From positions 1 to 16,460 of the forward strand of contig JAUXFB010000002.1 in the NCBI GenBank assembly GCA_030620255.1: a DNA stretch of 16,460 nucleotides. The letters run 5' to 3'. The DNA is from Candidatus Aminicenantota bacterium. Its GTDB lineage: Bacteria > Acidobacteriota > Aminicenantia > UBA2199. The translations under genes were made by a program, and so were the position numbers. The notes under the pieces were generated by a model. The model ran no database searches. It saw only the letters and a list, made by a program, of their open reading frames with translations, and was not told the DNA's origin. Positions within the stretch are counted from its first letter, which is position 1. Each line of letters starts with the position of its first letter. Below are positions 703 to 1,039 of the stretch, in pieces.

Positions 703-818
703 ACCTTTTTCTTTAAACTAATTCTATCACCTGATTTAAAATATTAAATAAGATTATATGATTTTAATAAATTATTTTCCAGAAAACAGGAACTTATAGG
801 GTTTGATAAATCAATCCC

Positions 819-932
819 CTACATTTTCCCTGCAGCAATCTTCATCTCTTCATATGTTAAATTATACAATTTATATACAAATTTGTCGATTTTGTTTTCT
901 TTTTTCCTTTTTACTTTTACCTTTTTACTTGT
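819..932 (-). pseudogene. C-terminal remnant of a restriction-modification (methylase/type IIG-like) enzyme
   Basis: Reading the minus strand into the stop complementary to 819-821, the last 25 or so codons give KIDKFVYKLYNLTYEEMKI followed by a short tail. This closely resembles the usual C-terminal end (IDxLVYxLYGLTxEEIxIVE) of adenine-specific methylase and type IIG restriction proteins of the Eco57I/BREX PglX kind. Upstream the frame stays open but becomes lysine-rich and then hydrophobic nonsense: it passes through an imperfect 14-bp tandem repeat (907-920 and 921-934, 12 of 14 identical) and into the repeats before the ATPase gene. No start codon, methylase motif or catalytic domain is present. 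I infer that the main part of the gene has been lost by deletion or replacement. The match is from memory of the family and is short, so a chance resemblance is not excluded. Confidence 0.5.
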
Positions 933-951
933 AACCCATCTACTCTTCCTT

Positions 952-1037
952 ATTACATTATTTTGGAGATAAAAAACCATGTTGTTGACATTTTTTAGGA
1001 GATATAATATAGTATATTTGACATTTTTTAGGAGATA
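952..1037 (+). repeat. Three direct repeats of 20 bp at a 33-bp period upstream of the ATPase gene
   Basis: Two identical copies of TTGACATTTTTTAGGAGATA lie at 985-1004 and 1018-1037. A third, degenerate copy lies at 952-971 (16 of 20 identical). The start-to-start distance is 33 bp both times, about three helical turns, so a protein bound at each copy would face the same side of the DNA. The middle copy supplies the promoter -35 box and the last copy supplies the AGGAG ribosome binding site five bases before the ATPase ATG. Copies one and three are both followed by a CCATG. The layout fits an operator for autoregulation or a duplicated translation-initiation segment; neither is proven. Confidence 0.85.
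985..1013 (+). promoter_or_regulatory. Promoter of the DUF4143 ATPase gene, built from the repeat
   Basis: TTGACA (985-990) and TATAGT (1008-1013) are 17 bases apart, five of six matches in the -10 box and a perfect -35. The start of transcription would be near 1020, inside the third repeat copy, leaving a leader of about 20 bases that contains AGGAG at 1030-1034. The other two repeat copies have no -10 box at the right distance. Confidence 0.6.
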
Positions 1038-1039
1038 CC

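Follow-up and report, generated by a model that had tools for sequence, protein, structure and literature searches.

Plasmid iterons are repeats that lie near the gene of the cognate protein by which they are read. In geminiviruses too, Rep initiators read repeats near their own gene in a sequence-specific manner (PMC12548392). Here we describe a comparable arrangement in a 16,460-nucleotide stretch of DNA from a Candidatus Aminicenantota bacterium (the window; contig C139 of a 1.75-Mb draft genome, 77% complete), where three 20-bp units with a 33-bp period lie over the putative promoter of a PDC-S01 gene, which encodes an ATPase with AAA_14 and DUF4143 domains. On balance, the encoded protein is likely to bind this array at its own promoter and to regulate itself negatively. 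As at iterons, several direct repeats in constant helical phase adjoin the gene of their presumed binder; unlike iteron/Rep systems, PDC-S01 is a chromosomal AAA-nuclease gene and the period is 32-33 bp.

PDC-S01 is a candidate single-gene phage defence. It stands fourth in frequency among the defence systems of prokaryotes according to a passage of PMC12988326, which describes validation of candidates of this kind as mostly pending. The passages on PDC-S01 in that paper and in PMC13356809 treat abundance, transfer and domains and make no mention of an upstream array; nor did we find a description of arrays upstream of PDC-S01 or DUF4143 genes in passages of the open-licence literature, including these two papers, PMC5760070 and PMC4599002. 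The family is known as a defence candidate; its arrays are apparently undescribed. Among related ATPases, IniR has an Sso1545-like AAA module in a protein acting at a promoter, as proposed here, according to passages of PMC5760070; it differs from PDC-S01 in that a separate domain binds DNA and another operon is induced, and the word nuclease is absent from that paper. Unlike Orc1/Cdc6 and the archaeal AAA ATPases 2qen and 2fna, PDC-S01 carries at its C-terminus an additional PD-(D/E)XK-type domain, in which lies a residue that covaries with the array.

A phased array upstream of a PDC-S01 gene

The features of the locus are as follows.

952 to 971, + strand: repeat unit 1, ATTACATTATTTTGGAGATA (16/20); the stretch also present at another locus of a sister species has its left end here, at 949
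985 to 1004, + strand: repeat unit 2, TTGACATTTTTTAGGAGATA, containing the -35-like TTGACA at 985-990
1008 to 1013, + strand: -10-like box TATAGT between units 2 and 3; with the -35-like box, 11/12 matches and a 17-bp spacer
1018 to 1037, + strand: repeat unit 3, TTGACATTTTTTAGGAGATA, containing AGGAG at 1030-1034; the transcription start is predicted to fall inside it
1040 to 2350, + strand: PDC-S01 gene for an AAA_14 and DUF4143 ATPase with a PD-(D/E)XK-type motif, 436 amino acids (PF13635, 4.4e-39; PF13173, 3.3e-29; PDC-S01, 3.4e-170)
1799 to 1903, + strand: winged-helix-like region, residues 254-288, so named from the AlphaFold2 (AF2) model, with predicted helix 266-278 and strand 282-288
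2126 to 2134, + strand: codons K363-N364-D365 of a hairpin loop, of which residue 365 covaries with the repeat
2144 to 2191, + strand: catalytic motif D369 ... E382-x-K384, invariant across 65 aligned proteins
949 to 2350, + strand: stretch in common with sister-species locus L016 (96.2%), the flanks of L016 being unrelated

The unit starts lie exactly 33 bp apart, with identities of 16/20 (units 1 and 2), 20/20 (2 and 3) and 16/20 (1 and 3), which bears out a preliminary description of three 20-bp units, two identical and one 16/20, spaced 33 bp apart within 952-1039. The third copy carries AGGAG, as also described, and this word ends 5 nt upstream of the ATG at 1040. A 20/20 pair of 20-mers at lags of 20-199 was obtained in none of 1000 dinucleotide shuffles of 601-1039 (maximum 18). 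The assignment of unit 2 as the -35 box fared less clearly: TTGACA and TATAGT are in place, but promoter-like matches between 600 and 3000 are no commoner than in shuffles (10 found versus 10.5 expected), and because of this the promoter call rests on position. A known RNA family in the leader was considered and rejected, tRNA alone having reached the threshold in 600-2700; a tRNA-Val gene lies at 2605-2679.

Scanning the window's own genome with up to 3 mismatches recovered the unit at its two sites and one 3-mismatch match on contig C263, the backward control also giving one match. A repeat spread over the genome was rejected on this basis, the one further match being equal to the control, although absence elsewhere is not absolute because the genome is 77% complete. 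By ATPase protein, the closest named relatives among the matches listed are Candidatus Aminicenantes metagenome-assembled genomes, at 97%.

The window protein matches the PADLOC profile PDLC04786 over residues 1-433 of 436 (E 3.4e-170), and seven other scanned proteins also match PDC-S01 profiles. Its layout comprises a STAND/Orc-like AAA module, the winged-helix-like region and a PD-(D/E)XK-type domain. The combination of AAA module and modelled winged-helix fold would place it with STAND/Orc-Cdc6-type proteins, and the fusion of an AAA ATPase to a PD-(D/E)XK-type domain is that of PDC-S01. We take D369 ... E382-x-K384 to be the PD-(D/E)XK motif. This name fits a passage of PMC12988326. No credible match was obtained for the window protein in a PDB sequence search, and none among NCBIfam and PHROGs profiles.

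The 32-33-bp period recurs across the family

We examined the best 80 of 155 homologues, of which 75 were used for upstream analysis (L058, L063, L068, L073 and L076 were left out owing to a cut N-terminus or a contig edge). A similar pair of 18-mers at a lag of 28-38 was found within 250 bp upstream at 62 of the 75 loci, nearly all at 32-33 bp, versus 6/75 in the downstream control (shuffles: mean 4.1, maximum 8). Broken down by lag, 103 pairs occur at 33 and 32 at 32, while each other lag between 20 and 60 has 0-6. A motif model that started from TTACACTTTTTTGGAGATAAATT and was then adjusted to the upstream regions gave 212 matches in 76 upstream regions, 62 of which hold at least two; downstream regions had 6 matches and gene interiors 4, with no region of either kind having two or more. 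The 18-mer pair count serves as the independent test because the motif model was fitted to the upstream regions. Copies in the + orientation concentrate near -23, -55, -88 and -121 relative to the start codon, whereas the unit is reversed in Clostridia/Bacilli-type loci, where it lies mostly at about -77 and -110, and in some Bacteroidales. With variations, then, the unit precedes further DUF4143 genes, in genomes both related and distant, where the preliminary description had envisaged that it might be sought, and the window repeats are one case of a widespread, apparently undescribed pattern of 32-33-bp-spaced repeats over the promoter of PDC-S01 genes.

Units are private to each paralogue

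A scan of 12 genomes with ACACTTTTTTGGAGATAAA at up to 2 mismatches returned 36 matches, of which 31 fall in a single phased cluster per genome in 11 genomes; the other 5 lie outside clusters, and one genome has none. The cluster is on the ATPase contig in the six genomes that have that contig among the matches listed. Paralogues were sampled from 100 DUF4143 matches (31 in G010, 31 in G013, 23 in G011 and 15 in G005), 87 of them among the matches listed; about 84 were fetched, 50 passed a profile and length filter, and 47 had at least 100 bp upstream. Upstream of these genes the period is equal and the units differ, as in the G011 examples GTTATCTATGAAAAAATGTA, CAATATCGGATTTTATTCCT, AGTATTGGAAAAACCGATAT and AAACTCGCTCATTTTTTAGG. 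Pairs at 31-34 bp precede 24 of the 28 paralogues of at least 425 amino acids (1 downstream) and 10 of the 19 shorter ones (2 downstream).

For 31 arrays selected for at least 15/18 identities, the second copy of the same array averages 16.3-17.4 identities, versus 11.5-12.1 for the best match in other paralogues' upstream regions and 11.4 in single-base shuffles. Only 5 of 208 cross comparisons reach 15, the G005 figure including L161, a divergent gene pair with one common upstream region. That the unit might mark DUF4143 genes in general was rejected, since paralogues in four other genomes carry private units. Nor is the suggestion supported that it marks a family of ATPase loci in the window's own genome: of the own-genome paralogues on C48 and C84, the one inspected, on C48 (L005), by eye carries ACCTTGT..TTATT instead, present twice at a 33-bp spacing some 100 bp ahead of position 1228. 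CCTTG words similar to the L005 unit precede several distant relatives. Upstream of L174, L175 and L178, which encode shorter DUF4143 proteins of about 370-400 amino acids, inverted repeats were seen by eye near the promoter besides the direct repeats.

A protein residue tracks the repeat

In raw covariation, residues 363-365, in the hairpin preceding the catalytic strand, come top for motif positions 13 and 15; for position 6, residues 410, 423 and 24 score equally high. To control for kinship, the 59 of 76 rows with at least two scored copies (L015, L016 and L061 excluded) were reduced to 29 disjoint nearest-neighbour pairs with overall divergence removed. Among 300 columns, residue 365 then shows the strongest association with the 3' half of the motif (partial r 0.73, against 0.48 for the next; family-wise p 0.0011 by permutation), and leads at position 13, where residue 363 is third. 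Presence of D365 agrees with a majority motif of GGAGA in 58 of the 59 loci (both in 31, neither in 27, D alone in L053 and GGAGA alone in none), a figure that uses alphabetical tie-breaking; breaking ties the other way would make L020 an exception as well. Of 180 columns, the runner-up agrees in 47 loci. By strict copy count, none of the 27 non-D loci has a GGAGA copy, and GGAGA makes up half or more of the copies at 27 of the 32 D loci. Parsimony on a tree built without the loop requires 12 motif and 11 residue changes.

Individual loci illustrate the association. Within the reversed-unit clade, L079 has a GGAGA majority together with K-S-D, which is present in none of its 8 nearest relatives. 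Of 432 aligned positions, 22 differ between L053 and L054, K363N among them, and between their arrays TTGGAGAT has become TGGCAGAT in 2 of 4 copies, a third copy being altered at one of those bases; that copies change together suggests concerted evolution of the units. Held-out cases are mixed, as detailed below. Covariation of one of its residues with the unit makes the ATPase the likeliest binder of the array, in keeping with the earlier proposal that the ATPase itself binds the repeats. Residue 365 changes in step with the repeat sequence, and the protein therefore probably recognises its own gene.

A model of self-recognition

An array of constant spacing, private among paralogues, accompanies its gene and covaries with the encoded protein. 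A promoter covered by several phased units that the gene product tracks, and that are private to each gene, is built like an autoregulatory or iteron-like site. We propose that the array serves the protein of the gene that follows it as a private recognition site, and that the AAA-winged-helix-nuclease protein binds several phased units, which at 32-33 bp are about three helical turns apart, probably as an oligomer. The hairpin of the nuclease-type domain around residue 365 would read the 3' half of the unit (GGAGAT here), the remainder perhaps being read by the winged-helix region. Binding most likely lowers the protein's own expression, since the promoter is covered by the units, as is the ribosome site within this clade. 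We infer that expression would be kept low for as long as the protein is neither drawn off nor activated, phage infection being one possible trigger; cleavage is predicted too. The preliminary description had envisaged silencing by joint blocking of RNA polymerase and the ribosome site. A layout of copy over -35, spacer over -10 and copy over Shine-Dalgarno sequence fits many + loci, but blocking of the ribosome site is not general and is at most clade-specific, because Clostridia/Bacilli-type units are reversed and mostly lie further upstream.

Several results weigh against self-recognition in this form. No pair was found at 13 of the 75 close homologues, and in wider sets a pair is present in 18 of 39 long and 0 of 3 short members (phylum, own and viral sets) and in 6 of 19 (Clostridia). 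Restriction of the -10-like box to the last spacer was not established, the counts (24/44, with two loci counted twice in the 44, 21/39 and 7/25) showing no clear enrichment there. The reversed orientation in one clade argues against a single fixed mode of expression block. As to the residue, position 15 alone is led by residue 199, with 365 in 13th place, and K363 is only 71st for the 3' half. Winged-helix residues 267 and 268 rank 220th and 148th (38th and 126th for the 5' half); S267 and R268, promising in raw covariation, were rejected after the pair test. Five of the 32 D365 loci (L019, L020, L021, L025 and L053) have under half GGAGA copies, and L022, outside the 59, combines D with one scored GGACA copy. 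E365 accompanies GGGGA, TGGGA and GGAGG, but GTACA and AAAGA too. Supported branches hold only 4 independent pairs, of which 3 change the same way, 0 the opposite way and 1 not at all (p 0.25), a number that leaves the tree-based test underpowered. Among held-out loci, L185 and L186 have S-D with scored copies GGAGG and CGGGA, the ATG-adjoining copy being GGAGA by eye, and L253 has a single GGAGA copy without D.

Array and gene in a different chromosomal place

The sister-species locus L016 has 1402 bp in common with the window, corresponding exactly to 949-2350, and lies at another chromosomal place. L015 has the window's flanks, and L015 and L016 have 34 bp more in common past the stop codon. 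This tail, which the window lacks, contains a GGAGTTAACAT word resembling a decayed unit by eye. On either side of the stretch in common with L016, window positions 704-949 and 2353-2561 differ from the syntenic relative L015. In another genus, L185 and L186 contain the stretch from 955 and 985 onward at about 71%.

These observations raise the alternative that the array mainly serves as the recognition end of a mobile unit consisting of one gene, used by the AAA-nuclease for movement or homing, with promoter overlap secondary. The common stretch between unrelated flanks, beginning at the first unit, the tail word behind L015 and L016 and the invariance of the catalytic triad all favour it, as does the gene left of the L016 copy, which is present in genome G001 on contig C90 without an ATPase behind it. 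No complete empty site could be read there, because C90 extends only 238 bp beyond the match. Transposon-like recognition units flanking the gene on both sides were not found: the 75 downstream regions contain 6 motif matches, none with two, and phased units at both gene ends were rejected, self-similar pairs downstream (6/75) being near shuffle level, with the caveat of GGAGTTAACAT behind the L015/L016 gene. A single relocation may also represent ordinary transfer of a self-contained gene, and we regard the mobile-unit explanation as unlikely.

Phased pairs in viral contigs

The exact sequence CACTTTTTTGGAGATAAA occurs in 13 viral contigs, none of which has a PDC-S01 reading frame by our own profile. 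The general pattern of a phased GGAGAT pair occurs in 11 viral contigs with no PDC-S01 frame in the sequence examined (12.6 of 15.3 kb for L263; 4.8 of 30.2 kb for L276). In the IMG/VR contigs L263-L269, L271-L273, L276 and L277, two units lie 32-33 bp apart, mostly outside long frames, with several TATAAT-like spacers; the first copy in L264 is a GTAGAT variant. Judging from translations, L267, L268 and L271 have related small, helix-turn-helix-like proteins nearby downstream, and some contigs with the pair carry terminase-like, ParB-like or primase-like genes. In the phylum to which G003, a Bacteroidales metagenome-assembled genome, belongs, the pattern was found once in 385 genomes, at G003's own ATPase, the centre of the search. 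Three phage stretches had no blastn match to named phage records.

The array may accordingly be imagined as a sensor common to, or copied from, phage promoters, such that the protein sees a phased site in phage DNA and its own array sets a level or target. The lack of a PDC-S01 frame in 11 of 11 contigs (sequence examined), the position and spacers of the viral pairs, and the standing of PDC-S01 as a candidate defence family are consistent with this. Against it, at least 9 of 12 compared contigs are linked by DNA similarity, so few independent viral events are represented; four other units or unit classes have no exact match in viral contigs; and in one viral subgroup the first copy overlaps, by eye, the end of a small reading frame. 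We consider a phage-derived sensor distinctly improbable. The same 11 contigs leave room for another user of the site, such as a host or phage regulator that binds the array instead of the ATPase, but the privacy of units to each paralogue within one genome, and their covariation with a residue of the encoded protein at loci from many phyla, make such a regulator very unlikely. Chance or neutral tandem duplication of the leader is scarcely credible: the units are AT-rich with promoter-like and Shine-Dalgarno-like words, but shuffle tests reject chance at this locus (0/1000 here, with family-wide pairs above shuffles), and an equal period recurs in dozens of loci with differing units while being absent downstream and in shuffles.

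Implications for the PDC-S01 family

Returning to recognition of the array by the protein encoded behind it, a probable cognate site and a tracking residue make PDC-S01 testable biochemically, with a site to bind, a mutant expected to fail and a paralogue as control, and specificities would become readable from upstream regions. More speculatively, and with low confidence, PDC-S01 could constitute a large set of ATPase-nucleases that each possess a DNA address of their own, a phased promoter array read by and evolving with the hairpin around residue 365, some of these addresses being in phage genomes. If this were true, bacteria with 20-30 paralogues would possess many DNA-sequence detectors, in each of which one site would both control the weapon and mark its target.
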